DNA of 64,000 nt from the NCBI RefSeq assembly GCF_002923755.1, contig NZ_PGFZ01000008.1:65453-129452 (forward strand), written 5' to 3'. Positions within the stretch are counted from its first letter, which is position 1, and every line of letters begins with the position of its first letter. Origin of the DNA: Methylovulum psychrotolerans (GTDB lineage Bacteria > Pseudomonadota > Gammaproteobacteria > Methylococcales > Methylomonadaceae). The notes beneath the pieces are model-generated. The model saw nothing but the letters and a program-made list of their open reading frames with translations. It was not told where the DNA came from and ran no database searches. This document shows positions 25,875-40,184 of the stretch, in pieces. A program made the translations under genes and the position numbers.

Positions 25875-28800
25875 ATGGCGACATATAACGGCGATAACGG
25901 CAATAACTATTACGTCGGCACGGCAGGCGATGATGTTATTGAGGGCAATGGCGGCGATGATTCGCTGTTTGGCAATGGGGGCAATGATACCGTTACGGGT
26001 GGGGCGGACAATGATTCGTTATATGGCGGTGACGGTAATGACACGCTCAGCGGCGGGGCAGGTAATGATACGTTATGGGGTGGGGCGGGCAACGACACTT
26101 ATCTGGTCGCCAAAAACGGCGGGATAGACGCGCTGTACACTGGCGGCGGTAGCGATGTGGTCAAGTTCACTGATGTGGCCGCCGCCGACATCAAAATTAG
26201 CCGGAGCACTTCAGATTTGCTGCTGCAATATAGCGGCGGCCAGTTGATCGTCCAAGGTTATTTTAACTCGACAGACTATCGTGTCGGGCAGTTTCAGTTT
26301 AGCAATGGGATTGTATGGGGCTGGGCGGATATTAGCCTGAAGGTGTTGCAAGGGACTGCCAATACTGACATCTTGTCTGGTTATGACGACAGTAACGATA
26401 CTTTGAATGGTTTGGCGGGCAATGATTGGCTGTATGGCAACGGCGGCAACGATACGCTGAATGGCGGTACGGGTAGTGACACCTTGTCTGGTGGCTTGGG
26501 CAACGACACTTATCTGATCGCCAAAAACGATGGGGCGGACACGCTTTACGATAACGGCGGCACCGATGTGGTCAAGTTTACCGATATGGCAGCTACCGAC
26601 ATGACCCAAGTCAGCCGTATAGATGTAAGTTATAGCAACGGCGATTTGTTGTTAAGTTATAGCGGCGGCCAACTGATTGTCACGGATTATTTTAATGAGG
26701 ACATGGCGTATTATCGTATCGAGCAGTTTCAGTTCAGCAATGGGGCGGTGTGGGCTTGGGCGGACATCAAGGCCAAAGCGTTGCATCCCCCCACCAGCGG
26801 CAATGACCGCTTGTATGGCTATGACGACAGCAATGATAACCTAAACGGTTTGGCGGGTAATGACAGGCTATATGGCTTCAACGGCAATGATACCCTAAAC
26901 GGCGGCACTGGCAATGACTGGTTGGAGGGTGGTCTGGGCAACGACACTTATCTGATCGCCAAAAACGACGGGGTGGACTCGCTGATCGATAACGGCGGCA
27001 CCGATGTGGTCAAATTCACCGATCTGGCAGCCACTGGCATCACCCGCGTTAGCCGCGAGGGCTTCTATGGCAACGATTTGGTGCTGGGCTATGGCAGCAG
27101 CCAATTGACTGTCCAAAGTTATTTTTACTCGACAGACTATCGGATCGAGCAATTCCAGTTCAGTAATGGGGTGGTTTGGGGTTGGGCGGACATTAAAGTT
27201 AAAGCCTTGCAAGCGGCCAACAGCAGCGGTAATGACAATATCTATGGCTATGATGACAGTAACGATACCCTGAACGGTTTGGCGGGCAATGACACGCTGT
27301 ATGGCTTCAACGGCAATGACACCCTAAACGGCGGGGTAGGTAATGATTATTTAGAGGGCGGTGCGGGCAACGACATTTATCTGATCGCCAAAAATGACGG
27401 GGCGGACACGCTGTATGATTTCGGCGGCACCGATGTGGTCAAGTTCACCGATCTGGCCACCAGCGGCATCACCCAGGTCAGCCGGGTAGGGTTGTACAAT
27501 ACCGATTTGTTGCTGGCTTATGGCGGTAGCCAGTTGACCGTCACGAATTATTTTTCCTCCGCAGGTTACCGTGTCGGGCAATTCCAATTCAGCGATGGTG
27601 TGGTGTGGGGTTGGGCGGACATCAAGTTAAAAGTGTTGCATCCGACCAGCGGCGATGACCACTTGGATGGCTATGACGACAGCGGCGACATCCTGAACGG
27701 TCTGGCGGGTAATGATACCCTGAATGGCGGCGGCGGCAATGACACCCTGAACGGCGGGTCAGGCAATGACCTTTTGTATGGGGGCGTTGGCGACGACACT
27801 TATTTGATCGCCAAAAATGATGGGGACGATACGCTTTATGATTTTGGCGGTACCGATAGGGTGGTATTCACCAATCTGGCTTCCACAGACATCACGCAAG
27901 TCAGCCGCTTCGGCGGGTTCTACTACGGCGATATATTGTTGCTGGGCTACGGCAACAGCCAACTGACCCTCCCGGATTATTTTTCTAGGGCAGACGACCG
28001 CGTCGAGCAATTCCAATTCAGCGATGGCGTGGTGTGGGGCTGGGCGGATATCAAGTCAAAAGTGTTGCAGGGGACTGGCGGTAACGACACTTTATATGGT
28101 TATGACGACAGCAACGACATTCTGAACGGTCTGGCGGGCAATGACACCTTGATGGGCGGCGGCGGTGATGACACCCTAAACGGCGGAACAGGCAATGATA
28201 AGCTGGATGGTGGCCAGGGTGCCGACACTTATCTGATTGCTAAAAATGACGGGGCGGACAGCATTTCCACCGATAACGGCGGTACCGATACCGTCAAATT
28301 CACCGATATGTCAGCCACCGACATCAGCCAGGTCAGCCGGGTCGGTGCCGGTTACGATTTGTTGCTCAGTTATGGCAGCAGCCAATTGACAGTCCAATAT
28401 TATTTTGGCGTAACCGACAGCCGCGTCGGGCAATTTCTGTTCAGCAATGGCGTGGTCTGGCGCTGGGCGGACATTAAGGCCAAAGTTTTGCAGACAGCCG
28501 CCACCAGCGGTGATGATAGCGTGGAAGGCTTTGATGACAGCGACGACACGCTGAACGGTTTGGCGGGTAATGATTCGCTATATGGCTATGGCGGCAACGA
28601 CACCTTGGACGGTGGCACAGGCAATGATTCTATGGTCGGCGGCAAGGGCGACGACCGTTATTGGGTCGATAGCGCCTTAGATCATGTCTACGAGTATCTT
28701 AATGGCGGCAATGACACTGTCTATAGCACGGTGAGTTTTAGCTTATGGGGATATGGGGTGAACTTTGTCGAAAACCTGACCTTGCTGGTCGGCGGCCAAG

Positions 28801-29780
28801 CCGCAACCGGTAACATTCTGGACAATATCCTGATTGGCAATGCCGCTGCCAATAGCTTAAACGGCTTGACGGGCGACGATGTGCTGCAAGGTGGGGACGG
28901 CAACGACAGCTTGAATGGCGGTGCCGGTAACGACACCCTGGATGGCGGTAACGGTACCGATGTCGCCCACTATTGGGATGCCACGGCGGGCGTGAGCGTC
29001 AATCTGGCACTGACGGGGGCGCAGGACACCCTCGGTGCGGGTACGGACACCTTGGTCAGTATTGAAGGCATCAACGGCAGCACCTATAACGATACGCTGA
29101 CGGGTAACGCCGCCAATAATAGCTTATGGGGCGGGGCGGGTAATGACACTCTCAAAGGCGGTGACGGTAATGACGGCCTTACGGGCGGGCTGGGCTCCAA
29201 TATCTTGGATGGCGGCAACGGCTTGGATGTCGCCCAATATTACACCGCCAGTGCGGGCGTGACCGTCAATCTGGCGCTGACCACAGCGCAAAACACAGTG
29301 GGCGCAGGTACGGACATCCTGCGCAATATCGAAGCCATCAACGGCAGTGCCTATAACGACACCTTGATTGGCAATACCGCCGCCAACAGCTTATGGGGCG
29401 GCGGCGGCAACGATGTGCTGGACGGCGGCTTGGGCAATGATTTGCTTAAGGGCGGGCTAGGCCAGGACACTTTTGTCTTCGACACCGCCCTGGGCCTGAA
29501 CAACAAAGACACCCTCGACGACTTTACTGTCAGCGACGACACCATCCGCTTGGAAAACGCCATCTTTACCGCTCTGACCCACACCGGCGTATTGGCCGCC
29601 GACCAGTTCAAAATTCTCGGTAACAGCGGGGTGGCCGACAGCACCGATCGCATCCTTTACAACAGCGTGTCCGGTGGCCTGTTTTACGATGCCGACGGCA
29701 ACGGCACTGGCGCGGCGGTGCTGGTCGCCGTGCTGGGCAAAGGCTTGGCGATGACGGCGGCGGATTTTATGGTGGTGTAG
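25875..29780 (+). CDS. Large RTX (hemolysin-type calcium-binding) repeat protein
   Basis: A 1301-residue acidic, Gly/Asp/Asn-rich protein. Six modules of about 143 residues follow one another, with YDDS/FDDS motifs at residues 170, 316, 459, 600, 743 and 886. Each pairs GGxGNDxL calcium-binding nonapeptides with an HCBP-related segment (ending IEQFQFSNG.VW.WADIK). The remaining ~390 residues carry further RTX repeats and end in a typical type I secretion tail (DTFVFDTALG...DDFTVSDDTIRLEN...ADFMVV). I see no catalytic domain and no signal peptide, consistent with secretion by an ABC/HlyD/TolC system, which is not encoded in the window. A structural, adhesive or S-layer role is more likely than toxin activity. 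Confidence 0.9.
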   Translation: MATYNGDNGNNYYVGTAGDDVIEGNGGDDSLFGNGGNDTVTGGADNDSLYGGDGNDTLSGGAGNDTLWGGAGNDTYLVAKNGGIDALYTGGGSDVVKFTDVAAADIKISRSTSDLLLQYSGGQLIVQGYFNSTDYRVGQFQFSNGIVWGWADISLKVLQGTANTDILSGYDDSNDTLNGLAGNDWLYGNGGNDTLNGGTGSDTLSGGLGNDTYLIAKNDGADTLYDNGGTDVVKFTDMAATDMTQVSRIDVSYSNGDLLLSYSGGQLIVTDYFNEDMAYYRIEQFQFSNGAVWAWADIKAKALHPPTSGNDRLYGYDDSNDNLNGLAGNDRLYGFNGNDTLNGGTGNDWLEGGLGNDTYLIAKNDGVDSLIDNGGTDVVKFTDLAATGITRVSREGFYGNDLVLGYGSSQLTVQSYFYSTDYRIEQFQFSNGVVWGWADIKVKALQAANSSGNDNIYGYDDSNDTLNGLAGNDTLYGFNGNDTLNGGVGNDYLEGGAGNDIYLIAKNDGADTLYDFGGTDVVKFTDLATSGITQVSRVGLYNTDLLLAYGGSQLTVTNYFSSAGYRVGQFQFSDGVVWGWADIKLKVLHPTSGDDHLDGYDDSGDILNGLAGNDTLNGGGGNDTLNGGSGNDLLYGGVGDDTYLIAKNDGDDTLYDFGGTDRVVFTNLASTDITQVSRFGGFYYGDILLLGYGNSQLTLPDYFSRADDRVEQFQFSDGVVWGWADIKSKVLQGTGGNDTLYGYDDSNDILNGLAGNDTLMGGGGDDTLNGGTGNDKLDGGQGADTYLIAKNDGADSISTDNGGTDTVKFTDMSATDISQVSRVGAGYDLLLSYGSSQLTVQYYFGVTDSRVGQFLFSNGVVWRWADIKAKVLQTAATSGDDSVEGFDDSDDTLNGLAGNDSLYGYGGNDTLDGGTGNDSMVGGKGDDRYWVDSALDHVYEYLNGGNDTVYSTVSFSLWGYGVNFVENLTLLVGGQAATGNILDNILIGNAAANSLNGLTGDDVLQGGDGNDSLNGGAGNDTLDGGNGTDVAHYWDATAGVSVNLALTGAQDTLGAGTDTLVSIEGINGSTYNDTLTGNAANNSLWGGAGNDTLKGGDGNDGLTGGLGSNILDGGNGLDVAQYYTASAGVTVNLALTTAQNTVGAGTDILRNIEAINGSAYNDTLIGNTAANSLWGGGGNDVLDGGLGNDLLKGGLGQDTFVFDTALGLNNKDTLDDFTVSDDTIRLENAIFTALTHTGVLAADQFKILGNSGVADSTDRILYNSVSGGLFYDADGNGTGAAVLVAVLGKGLAMTAADFMVV

Positions 29781-33412: not shown

Positions 33413-33994
33413 CTTAAAGTATACATAGAGTTGCCGCCAACCAAAGCCTATCCTTAGATACGTTTATGACCAGCCTTGGAATTATATAATATGATGAAAA
33501 TGATGAAAGGCCTATTTTTAAATTAACTAAATTTTGTAACTGCTCACGCCCCCTTTATAAAAATTAATCATTCATAAACAATTTGTTAAAATTTAAAGAC
33601 CCCCGCTTCTTCATTTTTTTAGAACTATTCACTTTTTTAGGTGATTTTTGACGATGATTCCAAAAAAATAATCTATGGACATTGTCAAAATTAACGCCTT
33701 AAATAAGTTGCCTTTGGTGAGCATATAGAGTCCGAAGTTGATCACGCGACATAATAAGTGCATGAGTTAAAAACGGGCTTCGATTAGCAGAGAGCCTACG
33801 TCGTTTAACTGGCTTCGGTCTCTATACTGTTGGGGCGCTGGCGTTTTCCGAACAATGAACCGCTAAAAGACGTTACCCTTATACTACAACAAATAAAGCT
33901 AATGCTCTGAAATTTTGCTGGTTTTGGCAAGGGATGTGCGAAGATTGTCCAGCCGTTGACTAAGAAGGTGTGCATATATTTTTTAACATTGTTA

Positions 33995-34222
33995 TCTCTG
34001 CCTTCTGAGGAATTGTACGGTGTACGCAAAAATCCCGGACAAATTAACAATAGGGCCGATAAGCCAGAGTATGTGCACATTAAACAGGCATTAGAGAAGA
34101 AACTATTGACGGAACTGAGAAAAGCGGGGGACCTGCGGGTCATAGGCCATGGCAAGCATTTTGACCGCCCGCTTTATACCGACCGCAAATTTGTTGCTTG
34201 CCAAGATACATCCCTTTACCTA
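33995..34222 (+). pseudogene. Remnant of the 3' end of a sulfatase gene
   Basis: The frame reading SEELYGVRKNPGQINNRAD...KPEYVHIKQALEKKLLTELRK matches the C-terminal ~75 residues of the intact sulfatase (36112-36340), including FDRPLYTD and VACQDT. The nucleotide match is about 75% by eye. The rest of the gene, including the catalytic part, is missing, and the frame then runs into repeat sequence. It is a truncated duplicate or the remains of a second sulfatase. Confidence 0.85.
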
Positions 34223-34305
34223 ACCCTGCCGACAGGGATACGGTTACGGACTGCGCGACACCGCGTGCAAAGGCCTTTAGCCTTTGTACGCGGGTCTTAT
34301 ACGCT

Positions 34306-34360
34306 GAACGGTCTTTTGGAGCGCGGTCATCTTGACCGCAACTGATGCCCGCCCCTCACC
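34306..34360. repeat. Partial copy of the long hairpin repeat
   Basis: TGAACGGTC followed by TTTTGGAGCGCGGTCATCTT and GACCGCAACTG matches 33311-33364 with a deletion of the CAAGTTTTCGG arm and a shortened 3' side. It lies directly behind the sulfatase remnant. Confidence 0.7.
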
Positions 34361-34614: not shown

Positions 34615-34678
34615 ATAGGGTTTATATGGCATTAAAATTGTGTGGCTATTTAAAGTGCCGGCTTACGATTGTCGTTTG

Positions 34679-34688
34679 CCCCCCCCCC
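34679..34688 (+). repeat. C10 homopolymer in the sulfatase leader
   Basis: Ten consecutive C residues lie 52 bp before the sulfatase ATG. The longer reading frame that opens at TTG 34669 runs through the tract in frame with the sulfatase, so slippage could change leader length or frame. It is a candidate phase-variation site. Confidence 0.7.
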
Positions 34689-34740
34689 AACAATGCGGCC
34701 TGTTTCAGTCCGATACGACAATTCTTCAGTGCGGGTTTGT

Positions 34741-36363
34741 ATGAAAAAAAAAGCTATGTGTAAAATAGGGTTGGCTGTTATGTTGTTGCTGACACCCATG
34801 ATGGGTTGGTCAGCAAAGCGGCTGAATATTGTGATCATTGTCGGTGACGATTGGGGAGGGCCTTACGCTAGCGCCTACACCGGCATTTATGGACGTAATT
34901 TACCCAGTAATGTCGTCAAGACCCCTAATGTTGACCGTATCGCACAGAATGGTGTGCTATTTAAAAACGCTTACGTTAATGCGCCTTCCTGTACCCCGTC
35001 GCGCAGCTCCATTTTTACCGGGCGGTATTTTTTTAACACGGGCGGTGGCGCGGTGCTCGGTGGGACTTGGGATTTTACTATTCCTTCTTTTCCTTTGTTA
35101 TTGTTAGATGCGGGTTACCATATTGGCTTGACTAGCAAAGGCTGGTCGCCCGGTACGCCTCGGAATGCCCCTTTTGGCGGTACAGCGCATTACTACCAAT
35201 ATTTTGGCACGTCAGTAAGTAGTTTTAGTAAAAGCGTTACGAAATGGACAGCAAAGGGTATGCCCTTTGAAAAGGCCAAACAAACCATGCTTGATCAAGT
35301 CCGCGGTAATTTTGAAGCCTTCTTAGCCGACAGAAAACCCGATCAGCCTTTTTTTTATTGGTTCGGGCCGACCAACACGCACCGCACTTGGGTGAAAGGA
35401 TCAGGTAAAGCCTTATGGGGGATTGAGCCAGACAGCTTAAAAGACCAATTGCCGGTTTATTTACCGAATAACCCGGAAGTACGCGAAGATATGGCCGATT
35501 ATCTGGGTGAGATTCAAGCCTTAGATGCGTATATTGGCGTGCTGTTGAAAAAGCTGGAAGAGATCGGCGAATTGGATAACACCATAATTGTCGCTACAGG
35601 CGATAACGGACCGGGCGGTTTCCCGCGTGGGAAATGGAATTTGTATGATTTTGGTGTCGCCACGCCCTTGGTTGTGTGGTACCCACACAGTACAGGCGGA
35701 CGTGTTGTCACAGATTTCACGACGCTGATGGATTTGGCGCCCACTTTTCTGGAAGTGGCTGGTGTGGCCATACCGCCAAAAACGGACGGGCGTAGCCTGC
35801 TCAATATTTTGACATCGCCTCTTAGCGGACAGGTCGACCCACAACGGACATTTGCGATTACAGGCGAAGAACGGCATAACGCCAAGGCACGGGACGATAG
35901 TTTGCCTTATCCGGCGCGGGCATTACGCACAGCAAGATATCTTTATATCCGTAACTTTGCCCCTGACCGTTGGCCTATGGGATGCCCTTACGTTGCGGCG
36001 CATGTCCCCTATGTATTTCACGATATAGGTGAACCCAGCCCTACTTATGACTGGATTATTACTAACCGCTCTATACCCAGTGCGGCAGACTATTTTACAT
36101 GGGCGTTCGCAAAACGTCCGGCTGAGGAATTGTACGATGCACACAAAGACCCTGGACAAATTAACAATGTTGCCGATGATCCGATGTATGCCGATATTAA
36201 GAAGTCATTAGCAGAGAAATTATTGGCTGAACTTAAAAAAGCCGGTGACCCACGGGTCATAGGCGATGGCGGAACGTTTGACCGCCCGCCTTATACCGAC
36301 CTTAAAACCGTCGCTTGCCAAGATACCATCCCTTTAAATTGGGCACCCGGCAGTCATCACTAG
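34741..36363 (+). CDS. Periplasmic sulfatase (type I, formylglycine-dependent)
   Basis: A 540-residue sulfatase from ATG 34741, with a signal peptide ending near WSA (residue ~24). The core alpha/beta alkaline-phosphatase fold starts with the metal-binding IVGDDWGGP. The formylglycine motif is CTPSR (Cys84-Arg88) followed by SIFTGRY. The second metal block ATGDNGPGG and a C-terminal subdomain, ending with EELYDAHKDPGQINN, are typical of heparan-N-sulfatase-like or choline-sulfatase-like enzymes; substrate unknown. It needs a formylglycine-generating enzyme or anSME, not seen in the window. A truncated second copy lies upstream, and the promoter region resembles that of the RTX gene. Confidence 0.9.
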   Translation: MKKKAMCKIGLAVMLLLTPMMGWSAKRLNIVIIVGDDWGGPYASAYTGIYGRNLPSNVVKTPNVDRIAQNGVLFKNAYVNAPSCTPSRSSIFTGRYFFNTGGGAVLGGTWDFTIPSFPLLLLDAGYHIGLTSKGWSPGTPRNAPFGGTAHYYQYFGTSVSSFSKSVTKWTAKGMPFEKAKQTMLDQVRGNFEAFLADRKPDQPFFYWFGPTNTHRTWVKGSGKALWGIEPDSLKDQLPVYLPNNPEVREDMADYLGEIQALDAYIGVLLKKLEEIGELDNTIIVATGDNGPGGFPRGKWNLYDFGVATPLVVWYPHSTGGRVVTDFTTLMDLAPTFLEVAGVAIPPKTDGRSLLNILTSPLSGQVDPQRTFAITGEERHNAKARDDSLPYPARALRTARYLYIRNFAPDRWPMGCPYVAAHVPYVFHDIGEPSPTYDWIITNRSIPSAADYFTWAFAKRPAEELYDAHKDPGQINNVADDPMYADIKKSLAEKLLAELKKAGDPRVIGDGGTFDRPPYTDLKTVACQDTIPLNWAPGSHH

Positions 36364-36428: not shown

Positions 36429-39400
36429 CTAATTGCCTGCTATTTTTATCATCCTGCCGCACAGGCCCTTACGCAGTTCCTCCAACACCAGTACCGCTCC
36501 CGCTATCCCCGTCGCTAACAGCCAATCCCCACCCGTTAACGCGGTGGTATGGAAAACCATCTGTGCGGGTGGCCAGTGGATAATCAGGATTTGCAGCGCC
36601 AGCACGGTGCTGATGGCCAGCCAGAACCAACGGTTGGCGAAGAAATGGCGGTTAAAGGCGGTGCCGTGTTCGGTGCGGGCGTTAAAGACGTTAAAGACTT
36701 GGAACAAGACAAAGGTATGGAAGGCTAAGGTGGTGGCATGTGCCGCCGTGCCAGTTTGGAGGCCATAATATAAAATCCCCAGCGTGCCTATCGCCATGGT
36801 TAAACCATAGCACAGTAAATTGCCCAAGCGCGGCCACGATAAAATGGGCGCGGCACTGGCGCGGGGCGGGTGCTCCATGCTGTGTGCCGAGAGAGGGTCT
36901 ACGCCCAGCGACATGGCGGGCGGGCCGTCCATGATGATGTTAATCCACAACAATTGCACGGCGGTAAACGGCAAGGGCATGCCCAGTAAGGGGGCACTCA
37001 GGACGGTGAGGATGGCGCCGATATTGGTGGACAGTTGGAAGCGGATAAACTTAACCATATTATCGTAAATGCCCCGGCCTTCCTTAACGGCGTTGACGAT
37101 ACTGGCAAAATTGTCATCGGTCAGGATCATGGTGGCGGCCTCTTGGGCGACATGGGTGCCGCTCACCCCCATGGCAATGCCGATGTCGGCGCTTTTTAAG
37201 GCGGGCGCGTCATTGACCCCGTCACCGGTCATGGCGACGATGTGTCCGGCCTTTTTTAGGGCGTTGACGATTTGGACTTTTTGGGCAGGGGTCGTCCGCG
37301 CAAACACGCCGATGCCGTCAATTGCCGCCGCTAAGGCTTCCGCTGACAGCGCGGCCAATTGCGTACCCTCCAGCACCGTTCCCGGTAAGCCCAGTTCTTG
37401 GGCAATCACCGACGCGGTCAGGACTTGGTCGCCGGTAATCATTTTTACGGCAATGCCCGCCTGTTGGCATAAGGCGATGGCTTGGCGGGCTTCCGGTCTG
37501 GGCGGGTCGATCAGGCCGATTAAGGCGGTAAAGGTCAACGCTTGCAGCAAGTCGGCCAAGGCCGGGATAGTGTCGGGTAAGGGGCCGTCGGGCAACTGCC
37601 CGACCGCTACCGCCAGTACCCTTAAGCCCGTGCTTGCCAAGGCGGCGTTGTGGGCTAAGAGGGCTTCGTGCGGTAGGGCGACTGACTCGCCTTGGGCGTT
37701 TTGGACAAAGGTGCACCGCGCCAGCAGCACTTCCGGCGCACCTTTGACAAACACACGGATGCCGTCGGCACTGCGGTGGAAGGTCGCCATAAATTTATGC
37801 TCGGCATCGAAGGGGATTTCGGCAATGCGCGGCAGTTGCGCCAGCGCTTGTTGCTTGTTCATGCCGCCTTTCGCCGCCAGTACCAGCAACGCGCCTTCCA
37901 ACGGATCGCCGATCACCTCCGCGCCGTGCCAGTCGCTGTCATTGCATAACACCAAGGGCAGCAATAAATCGTTGAGGTCGGCAGTGCCGGGGCTAGCGGT
38001 GTCCGGCACAATAGCCCCGGCGGCTTGGTAGCCTTCGCCGCTGACCTGGTAGGATTGGCCGCGATAATAAACCGCGCGGGCGGTCAGTTGGTTGACAGTT
38101 AAGGTACCAGTTTTGTCGGTGCAGATGACAGTGGTGCAGCCTAAGGTCTCCACTGCCGCCAAGCGTTTAACAATGGCATGTTGCTGAGCCATGCGGTGCA
38201 TACCCAAGGCCAAGGTGACGGTCACTACGGCGGGCAGGCCTTCTGGGATGGCGGCCACCGCCAGGGCAATGGCGGTGAATGCCGCCTCGGCCAGCGGCTC
38301 GCCGCGCCATAACGCCGCCGCGAAGACTATTGCCACCACCGCTAACGCCAATAAAGCCAAACGTTTGCCGACACTGCCCAGTTGCCGCTGTAAAGGTGTT
38401 TCTGCCTCGTCGGTGCGCGTTAATAGCTCCGCCAGTTGACCGATTTCGGTCGCCATGCCCGTAGCGGTCACGACCATTTCGGCACGGCCACGCGTAATGG
38501 TGTTGTTCATATACAGCATGGTGCTGCGTTCCGCGAGCGGTGCGGCGGCGTCGCTGAGGGCTTGGGTTTGTTTGGCAGCGGGCAGCGATTCGCCGGTCAG
38601 TGACGATTCGTCGGCTTCCAAGCTATAAGCCAGCAGGATGCGGCCATCGGCAGGGATTTTGTTGCCCGCTTCCAGCAGGACAATATCGCCCGGCACCAGT
38701 TGTTCGGCGGGCAGTTCCGCGACGTTGCCGTCGCGGCGCACGGTAGCGTGTAAAGTCAGCATTTTTTTTAACGCCGCCAAGGCTTGTTCGGCTTGGAATT
38801 CCTGATAAAACCCCAGCAAGGCATTTATCATCACCACGCCCATAATGACCGCGCCATCCATAAGATCGCCAATCAAGGCCGCCAGCACCGCCGCTGTTAT
38901 CAGCACCAAAATCAGGATGCTTTTAAATTGCGCCAACAGTAAGCGCCAAGCGGGGCGGGGCGGCTTGGCCGCTAATTGATTCGCACCGTGCTGATGCCGG
39001 CGTTGTTCGGCTTGGGGAGTGCTTAAGCCAGTGAGCGCGTCGGTTGCTTGCGCTTTCAGCACCGCCTCGGCTGACAAGTGGTGCCAAGCGGTGTTGGGCG
39101 GTTCGTTGGCTTCGGGCGGGGCAGTTGCCGTGTCCGTTTGGGTCGCCAGCCAGGCTTGCCAGACCGCCAATAAGACCGACAGCACCACTGGCCCTAAGAA
39201 CAGCCCGACCAGTCCGAAGCTGCTGAGGCCGCCAAATACGCCAAACATCACCACTAAAAATGGCACTTTGCCTGCCCCGCTAATCACCAAGGGGCGGATG
39301 ACGTTATCAATGGTGCTCACGACCAGCGTCCCCCACAGCAATAAGCCCAGTCCGGCCAGCCATTGGTCACTGAGAAACAGGGACAGGTCTATCGCCCCCC

Positions 39401-40184
39401 AGACCAGCATCGCCCCCATCGGCACCATCGCCAGTATGGCCGTCACCACGCCTAACAATACCGGGGCTTCAACACCCGCCACGGCATAACCGATCCCGGC
39501 GGTAAGCCCTTGGCCTAGGGCCGCCAGCACCAGTCCGTAGACCACCGCGCGGGTGGTGTCGCCAGCGGTTTGCCAATACAAGGCTTGGGAAGCGCCCAGA
39601 AAGCCTTTCAGGCCGAGCCGTACTTGTTGGAGTACGGTATTGCCATCACGGAAGCAAAAGAAGACCGTGACTAAGACTAGGCCTAAGTTTAGCAACGATT
39701 CCCCGACTCCGCCCAGCCATTGCGCCAGTTGCCCCAAGCCTTGCCGCGCCGCGTTCAGCACTTGCACGACCGTACCGCTACGGTCGCGGTTAAGCCGGTC
39801 CATCCAGGGCTGTAAATAATCCCCTAACCATGGGTTGTGCCTGATAGCGGGCGGCAGTTGGTAGGGTTGTTGGCTGAAATTGGCGGCGAGGCTCTGGTAG
39901 GCCATAGTGACCTCATTGTGCAGCATCGCCACCAGCCAGAAGATAATCAGGGCGATAAGGCCAGTGATGGCGGCGGTCATCAGTCCCGCACTCAGGTCGG
40001 CGTTATCGTTAAGCCTCTGCCGGAGCCGCCGATAGAGCGGCCAAGTGATATAAGCGATAATCACTGCCCAAATGATGCTGGTGAAAAAACCGCTTAATAC
40101 CCAAGCTGCCAGTAGGATCAGGCCAATTAGCAGCAGCAGGGGCATAAAAGCTTGTAGGGGGGCTTTCGCTAAGAATCTGTCCAT
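36429..40184 (-). CDS. AI-2E/PerM-type permease fused to a P-type (IIA-like) cation ATPase
   Basis: A single open frame of 1251 residues from ATG 40184 (a TTG 15 bp upstream is possible). Residues ~1-350 form an AI-2E (PerM/TqsA) family permease with about eight helices and the family block GLFLGPVVLSVLLAVW. A ~25-residue Thr/Pro-rich linker leads to a complete P-type ATPase (~370-1251): LTGES (A domain), IPEGLPAVV in M4, phosphorylation motif DKTGT with Asp690, TGDGVNDAPALKSADIGIAMG, and WINIIMDGPP in M6, where Asn and Asp are the cation ligands of Ca-type pumps. The two halves are normally separate proteins. The frame has no stop or obvious frameshift at the junction. Predicted: inner-membrane ion pump with an attached permease of unknown cargo. 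Confidence 0.9.
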   Translation of the reverse strand: MDRFLAKAPLQAFMPLLLLIGLILLAAWVLSGFFTSIIWAVIIAYITWPLYRRLRQRLNDNADLSAGLMTAAITGLIALIIFWLVAMLHNEVTMAYQSLAANFSQQPYQLPPAIRHNPWLGDYLQPWMDRLNRDRSGTVVQVLNAARQGLGQLAQWLGGVGESLLNLGLVLVTVFFCFRDGNTVLQQVRLGLKGFLGASQALYWQTAGDTTRAVVYGLVLAALGQGLTAGIGYAVAGVEAPVLLGVVTAILAMVPMGAMLVWGAIDLSLFLSDQWLAGLGLLLWGTLVVSTIDNVIRPLVISGAGKVPFLVVMFGVFGGLSSFGLVGLFLGPVVLSVLLAVWQAWLATQTDTATAPPEANEPPNTAWHHLSAEAVLKAQATDALTGLSTPQAEQRRHQHGANQLAAKPPRPAWRLLLAQFKSILILVLITAAVLAALIGDLMDGAVIMGVVMINALLGFYQEFQAEQALAALKKMLTLHATVRRDGNVAELPAEQLVPGDIVLLEAGNKIPADGRILLAYSLEADESSLTGESLPAAKQTQALSDAAAPLAERSTMLYMNNTITRGRAEMVVTATGMATEIGQLAELLTRTDEAETPLQRQLGSVGKRLALLALAVVAIVFAAALWRGEPLAEAAFTAIALAVAAIPEGLPAVVTVTLALGMHRMAQQHAIVKRLAAVETLGCTTVICTDKTGTLTVNQLTARAVYYRGQSYQVSGEGYQAAGAIVPDTASPGTADLNDLLLPLVLCNDSDWHGAEVIGDPLEGALLVLAAKGGMNKQQALAQLPRIAEIPFDAEHKFMATFHRSADGIRVFVKGAPEVLLARCTFVQNAQGESVALPHEALLAHNAALASTGLRVLAVAVGQLPDGPLPDTIPALADLLQALTFTALIGLIDPPRPEARQAIALCQQAGIAVKMITGDQVLTASVIAQELGLPGTVLEGTQLAALSAEALAAAIDGIGVFARTTPAQKVQIVNALKKAGHIVAMTGDGVNDAPALKSADIGIAMGVSGTHVAQEAATMILTDDNFASIVNAVKEGRGIYDNMVKFIRFQLSTNIGAILTVLSAPLLGMPLPFTAVQLLWINIIMDGPPAMSLGVDPLSAHSMEHPPRASAAPILSWPRLGNLLCYGLTMAIGTLGILYYGLQTGTAAHATTLAFHTFVLFQVFNVFNARTEHGTAFNRHFFANRWFWLAISTVLALQILIIHWPPAQMVFHTTALTGGDWLLATGIAGAVLVLEELRKGLCGRMIKIAGN

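Follow-up and report, generated by a model that had tools for sequence, protein, structure and literature searches.

Are two membrane proteins that are normally separate, an AI-2E-type permease and a P-type cation ATPase, really joined in a single bacterial protein, and what could such a protein do? The question is raised by a gene of Methylovulum psychrotolerans in a 64,000-nucleotide stretch of contig NZ_PGFZ01000008.1, hereafter the window. An earlier note on this DNA had described one uninterrupted frame with both halves complete, which the frame and its Pfam matches bear out; the gene lies on the minus strand, a detail absent from the note, and is open throughout from the ATG at 40184 to the stop codon at 36429–36431 (Table 1). 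The motifs that the note had called intact were all located in the protein: GLFLGPVVLS at residue 327 in the permease, and TGES at 530, PEGLP of membrane segment M4 at 647, DKTGT at 690, TGDGVNDAP at 986 and WINIIMDGPPA of M6 at 1080 in the pump. Pfam divides the pump half into Cation_ATPase_N (367–434), E1-E2_ATPase (476–668), Cation_ATPase (746–827), Hydrolase (878–1000) and Cation_ATPase_C (1070–1239). The host genome, 5.19 Mb in 97 contigs, also has a monooxygenase-A family gene (PF02461). Whole-protein searches found one other AI-2E protein in it, 31% identical; a second P2A-like pump was not found, and the remaining pump matches are short and 27–38% identical.

The fusion is genuine, neither an artefact nor unique. 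The same architecture, which the note had proposed to seek elsewhere, is present in 45 of 311 Methylococcales genomes from nine genera of one family (counted by hand), including Methylobacter and other Methylococcales. This number is a lower bound, since the pumps of two further genomes (G009 and G013) are cut by contig ends and may be fused too. Forty-five distinct fused frames come from 44 of the genomes, G176 being in two pieces, and the forty-fifth genome (G165) was read separately. The joint is open in all 45 frames, 37 of which are complete at both ends and eight cut, and matches spanning the whole window protein are 46–71% identical to it. In eight chosen pairs, the ratio of nonsynonymous to synonymous substitution rates (dN/dS) was 0.066–0.252 for the permease half and 0.043–0.166 for the pump half; purifying selection acts on both. 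The draft state of most of the genomes, a TGA codon inside the pump of one cut frame (G273) and the contig edges at which the other seven stop might suggest an error of assembly or of the frame, or two genes read through by chance. Set against the 37 complete distinct frames, several of them from one-contig genomes (these include G019, G160, G255 and G258), and against the purifying selection, this explanation has practically no chance, and the complete, conserved frames refute it in practice. The G273 gene (L150 and L208) itself belongs to the window's type of fusion, and its in-frame TGA points either to a defective copy or to an error in the draft.

The pump is probably not made on its own. 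The linker in the window has no in-frame ATG, GTG or TTG, and the first candidates past it, a TTG near residue 370 and a GTG near residue 375, have no Shine-Dalgarno-like string at the usual spacing before them. Over a wider stretch around the joint, a candidate start codon occurs in 39 of the 45 frames, preceded by a Shine-Dalgarno-like string in one (G145). Because the window's linker has no start codon and such a string was seen in just one frame, an independently translated pump seems improbable.

Outside the Methylococcales, no fusion was seen among the matches listed in a class sample of 369 genomes, part of which are themselves Methylococcales, and a phylum sample of 398. Among those listed in the class sample, none except the window's own begins before residue 322, and among those listed in the phylum sample, searched with a joint profile, only the window's own genome spans the joint. 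Two long AI-2E-containing frames of the phylum sample (G864 and G1042) have no pump match; by eye, the long upstream part of G864 resembles an antisense-like frame. In a contig scan, eight of the best 80 loci held the fusion, every one matching a genome among the 45, and separate pumps of the window's P2A subfamily are common among relatives. The note knew of no described function for this architecture, and we found no description of an AI-2E/P2A fusion in the open literature, nor in passages of a transporter survey (PMC3924187). Each half belongs to a known family, but the fusion, the fact that it recurs and the other pump fusions of the Methylococcales are, as far as searched, undescribed.

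The permease half is a member of the AI-2E_transport family (PF01594), scoring 134.1 bits against a gathering cut-off of 34.3 over profile positions 4–326 of 327. Its nearest solved relative is YdiK of E. coli (7ot9; E 2.3e-24 over residues 11–346) and not PerM, which the note had named among types of the family, the PerM sequence itself lying outside this comparison. A profile of 20 relatives matched YdiK at E 8.9e-43 and TqsA at E 5.5e-6. The half aligns with YdiK along its full length; however, YdiK is a separate protein of 370 residues, whereas the window's permease is part of a 1251-residue fusion, and its score for the YdiK equivalog (NF008216) is 125.9 bits, below the cut-off of 305. 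The solved entries of YdiK and TqsA (7nb6) each hold five chains, and a paper on the structure of the E. coli autoinducer-2 (AI-2) exporter bears, by its title in the reference list of PMC9045395, on the AI-2E pentamer. The fused chain is likely to be pentameric as well, judging by these homologues.

At a threshold of E ≤ 1e-95, the permease orthologue gave 100 matches in 98 of the 311 Methylococcales genomes and is thus nearly single-copy. According to a hand tally from frame lengths, which was checked, it is fused in 37 of the 98 genomes and only separate in 61, and just two of the 37 (G121 and G140) have a separate copy as well. As the permease is near-single-copy and rarely occurs in both states, the one copy in a genome was usually moved into the fusion. 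The note had named two findings that would speak against a real fusion, a frameshift or stop at the joint and separate genes in relatives; neither holds for the window's own lineage, the former appearing in none of the 45 frames, yet in other relatives the latter do exist, in the 61 genomes just given. The family-wide invariant and near-invariant residues are retained in fused and separate permeases alike.

The pump half is a P-type ATPase (TIGR01494; 314 bits against 62.3) with A, P and N domains by Pfam and with TGES, DKTGT and TGDGVND present. Its best-scoring type is the PMR1-type Ca2+ ATPase (TIGR01522), although 729.5 bits fall short of the cut-off of 798.3. The score for the SERCA type (TIGR01116) is also below its cut-off, at 613.6 against 703.4, and that for the PMCA type (TIGR01517) is above it, at 519.3 against 507.05, a label which is weak because the pump scores lower for this type than for PMR1. 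The best solved relatives are the Ca2+ pumps of the secretory pathway, SPCA1/PMR1 (8iww and others; E 3.5e-178), with which the window pump shares IPEGLP in M4 and WINIIMDGPPA in M6 as well as the absence of the second-site acids of SERCA. Unlike SPCA1, which has Q after DGPPA, it has M, and it carries the extra N-terminal transporter. The Q at this position governs Mn2+ selectivity in PMR1. A full-length alignment (E 3.6e-166) also links the pump to LMCA1 of Listeria (lmo0841; 6zhf, 9euq), a bacterial Ca2+ P2A pump whose M6, however, reads LFINLVNDSLPA and whose M8 has R where the window has Q. In SERCA numbering, the window pump has A in M5 at the second-site acid position and Q in M8. Since M4 and M6 are SPCA-like and the M5 acid and the M8 position are occupied by A and Q, the sequence points to a one-site Ca2+-type pump.

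Judged from sequence comparison, the pairing of permease and pump has been made or re-made more than once. The window represents the main fusion type, A. In type B (G134, a draft genome, and G121, in 3 contigs), the permeases are 74–77% identical to the nearest type-A permeases, and the pumps belong to another clade, are 53% identical to each other and have their closest relatives in different separate pumps; type B may have arisen by exchange of one part within a fusion that already existed. In type C (G255, G257 and G258), a different AI-2E protein, ~30% identical to type A, sits on a pump of the window's subfamily, and all three genomes also retain a separate main-type permease. A single origin of the main type is unsettled. 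One type-A permease clade was mildly rejected by the approximately unbiased test (p-AU 0.033 for 15 fused and 20 separate rows, after removal of one distant paralogue), and one type-A pump clade was not rejected (p-AU 0.115 in a quick tree with 26 chosen type-A rows and 33 other pumps), with partial agreement and long branches in an earlier 45-row pump tree. The two partners also meet unfused: in G022 they are separate neighbouring genes, the pump upstream, and in G291 they lie ~2 kb apart on opposite strands. On a Chloroflexota contig (L063) an AI-2E gene adjoins a P2A pump, on the same strand and after it, which may be chance, as it is the sole case noticed among the scanned loci from outside the Methylococcales. 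Furthermore, the window-subfamily pumps of G052 and G309 have an N-terminal Na_H_Exchanger (CPA2) domain in the same slot, that of G052 also with TrkA_N.

Further clues come from the gene content of the hosts. LuxS was found in none of the 45 fusion genomes and in five of 14 control genomes. With no LuxS match in its host, the fusion does not fall among AI-2 exporters of TqsA-like function, and because LuxS was absent from all 45 genomes, export of home-made AI-2 by the fusion is very unlikely. In nine fusion genomes the fused gene is followed on its own strand by a CNNM/CorC gene, within 50 bases in G150, G151, G160, G161, G163, G170, G175 and G179 and at 471 bases in G121. Reviews link CNNM proteins to Mg2+ transport, as Na+/Mg2+ exchangers or regulators, an assignment that is disputed. 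In G020 a close CNNM gene stands 17 bases upstream of the separate permease; the three type-C genomes have a distant one (~24% identical) upstream on the opposite strand, and G133 has a 119-residue CNNM fragment upstream of the fusion. No neighbour other than CNNM is shared by more than four of 20 chosen fusion loci. The CNNM neighbours and the lack of LuxS therefore support a role in ion homeostasis.

That the two halves work together is well supported, and their repeated joining in methane-eating bacteria suggests a joint role in the ion balance of the cell, not in cell-to-cell signalling. The reading that we favour, tentatively and with somewhat less than even confidence, is a divalent-cation export pump joined to a YdiK-type, probably pentameric AI-2E transporter that gathers pumps and moves a counter-ion, serving ion homeostasis with a CNNM/CorC protein. 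The C-terminal half would be an SPCA/PMR1-like P2A pump with one binding site that exports a divalent cation, most likely Ca2+, at the expense of ATP. The N-terminal half would form a pentamer, as in the YdiK and TqsA structures, with up to five pumps per complex, and may sustain pumping by moving an ion, H+- or Na+-linked, as counter-ion or in exchange; the whole would act in a membrane ion-homeostasis pathway alongside CNNM/CorC, with no export of home-made AI-2. The pumped ion, the pentamer of the fused chain and the counter-ion transport are what we infer. That the fusion could link ion pumping with a second transport event, as the note proposed, is plausible, and the repeated, independent pairings, the CPA2 fusion in the same slot and the CNNM/CorC neighbours strengthen it.

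Several results weigh against this counter-ion reading. CNNM stands at just nine of the 45 loci and was not found near the window's gene; many loci have short flanks. The M6 segments of the type-B pumps read WANMITEVT and WVNMVSSIA instead of WINIIMDGPPA, and with this difference at the ion site the permease cannot be specific to a single pumped ion. The structural prediction that the note had suggested gave little for the permease: an AlphaFold model from a 9-row alignment had a mean predicted local distance difference test (pLDDT) score of 43 and was discarded, so that the fold and oligomer of this half are taken from homology alone. The note's Na+/H+-antiporter idea is weakened, too. The AI-2E group with this activity has D251, R292, R293 and E296 as its signature in motifs C and D, with the consensus DFiPIiGSI and IRRTVEPKVMG, according to excerpts of PMC7221264, and by eye against this published consensus only, the signature residues are missing from the window permease, which reads AMVPMGAM and TIDNVIRPLVISG. 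It thus shares the AI-2E family (Pfam) with the Na+(Li+)/H+ antiporter UPF0118 of Halobacillus but not these residues, the consensus having been compared and no UPF0118 sequence aligned. Finally, an AI-2E protein of Lactobacillus failed a Na+/H+ rescue test, according to excerpts of PMC9134010.

The AI-2E half could instead have given up transport and become a scaffold or regulator through which the pump is oligomerised or anchored, an enlarged counterpart of the hydrophobic N-terminal segment of the subfamily's separate pumps. By eye, many rows of these separate pumps do have such a segment, about as long as a single helix, at the corresponding position; the same permease is joined to pumps with different M6 ligand sets, and in the Methylococcales P2A pumps are found fused to several unrelated membrane domains. 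We nevertheless hold a mere scaffold to be unlikely, if still worth serious attention: the permease half is conserved as strongly as the pump, it keeps the invariant and near-invariant family residues in fused and separate forms alike, and 35 of the 37 genomes have no orthologue besides the fused copy, so a scaffold would require the loss of the ancestral function each time. Rather improbable, in our estimate, is a union of two unrelated functions, with an unrelated metabolite exported by the permease and a fusion that just equalises expression. It would fit the mixed functions of AI-2E proteins described in parts of PMC7221264 and PMC9134010, but the repeated pairing with P2A pumps, the unfused linkage in G022 and the CNNM and CPA2 partners point to ion transport. 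That the permease half exports AI-2 for quorum sensing, with the pump as its power source or aid, has behind it the family name and the description of TqsA as an AI-2 transporter in portions of PMC7221264 and PMC9045395; given 45 genomes without a LuxS match, with the positive controls working, and a permease closest to YdiK and far from TqsA, we regard it as highly improbable.

AI-2E proteins are widespread and their function is disputed. Their repeated natural joining to ion-motive P-type ATPases where LuxS is undetectable is an independent line of evidence that much of the family works in ion homeostasis, for which the fusion offers a concrete test system. A pentameric fused chain would unite five pumps on the base of a second transporter, and no solved P-type ATPase is known to us with such an arrangement.

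Other P2A fusions of the Methylococcales resemble that of the window in placing a pump and a second membrane transporter or protein in one frame, but differ in the partner family and, in some, in its C-terminal position. BrkB stands at the C-terminus of the pump in G007, G146 and G219, HlyIII at the N-terminus in G080 and G077, and the pump of G040 is fused to PsiE; a CDF cation-efflux domain and a second P-type pump complete the set (Table 1). The frames of G078 and G218 resemble those of G077 and G036, a likeness seen at the level of the frame. The fused pumps with partners other than CPA2 are just ~42–44% identical to the window's pump. One could imagine the P2A pump of these methanotrophs as a fusion hub that at its ends accepts secondary transporters (AI-2E, CPA2, CDF, HlyIII or BrkB) or a second P-type pump to give primary-secondary hybrids, the AI-2E version being a pentameric exchanger that carries five pumps with mechanically or electrically coupled ion cycles, an idea in which we have little confidence. 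At a further locus (L236), a P2A pump is extended at its C-terminus by ~260 residues whose sequence suggests a membrane-fusion (HlyD-type) adaptor, with no Pfam match at E 0.001.

Table 1. Positions of the fusion gene, of related fusions and of other features in the window and in scanned loci (L)
Feature	Position	Strand	Basis or remark
Whole gene, AI-2E permease + P2A cation ATPase	window 36429..40184	minus	1251 residues plus stop; frame and Pfam
AI-2E (YdiK-like) permease domain, residues 16-345	window 39150..40139	minus	Pfam PF01594; YdiK 7ot9 match
Linker, residues 346-366	window 39087..39149	minus	few hydrophobic residues; no in-frame start codon
Complete P2A-type cation ATPase, residues 367-1239	window 36468..39086	minus	nearest solved: human SPCA1, Listeria LMCA1
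Separate pump gene of G022	L118 6953-9844	minus	
Separate AI-2E gene of G022	L118 5814-6941	minus	
CPA2-P2A fusions	L134 5940-10247; L190 2298-6230	both minus	Na_H_Exchanger N-terminal; TrkA_N in L134
BrkB fusion loci	L138, L196, L197		3 genomes scanned
HlyIII fusion loci	L200, L203		2 genomes scanned
P2A pump + C-terminal CDF cation-efflux domain with ZT_dimer	L201 3842-7624	plus	one genome, G096
P2A then P1B-like pump with heavy-metal-binding domains, 1672 residues (G036)	L194 2055-7070	minus	Pfam
Frame of the same 1672-residue length as in L194	L195 1879-6894	minus	frame length only
P2A pump with extra C-terminal residues	L236 2538-6356	plus	
Gly/Asp-rich repeat protein	window 25875-29780	plus	1301 residues
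Short frame like the end of a sulfatase-like protein	window 33956-34345	plus	129 residues
Sulfatase-like protein	window 34669-36363	plus	

Elsewhere in the window, ~6.6 kb from the pump gene, lies the gene of a protein made mostly of Gly/Asp-rich repeats of the GGxGND type, which, read from its sequence, is probably secreted and Ca2+-binding (RTX-type). The short frame is closely similar to the C-terminal end of the sulfatase-like protein encoded just downstream, with which it shares the strings EELY...PGQIN... and RPPYTD/RPLYTD...VACQDT, and looks like a broken duplicate.

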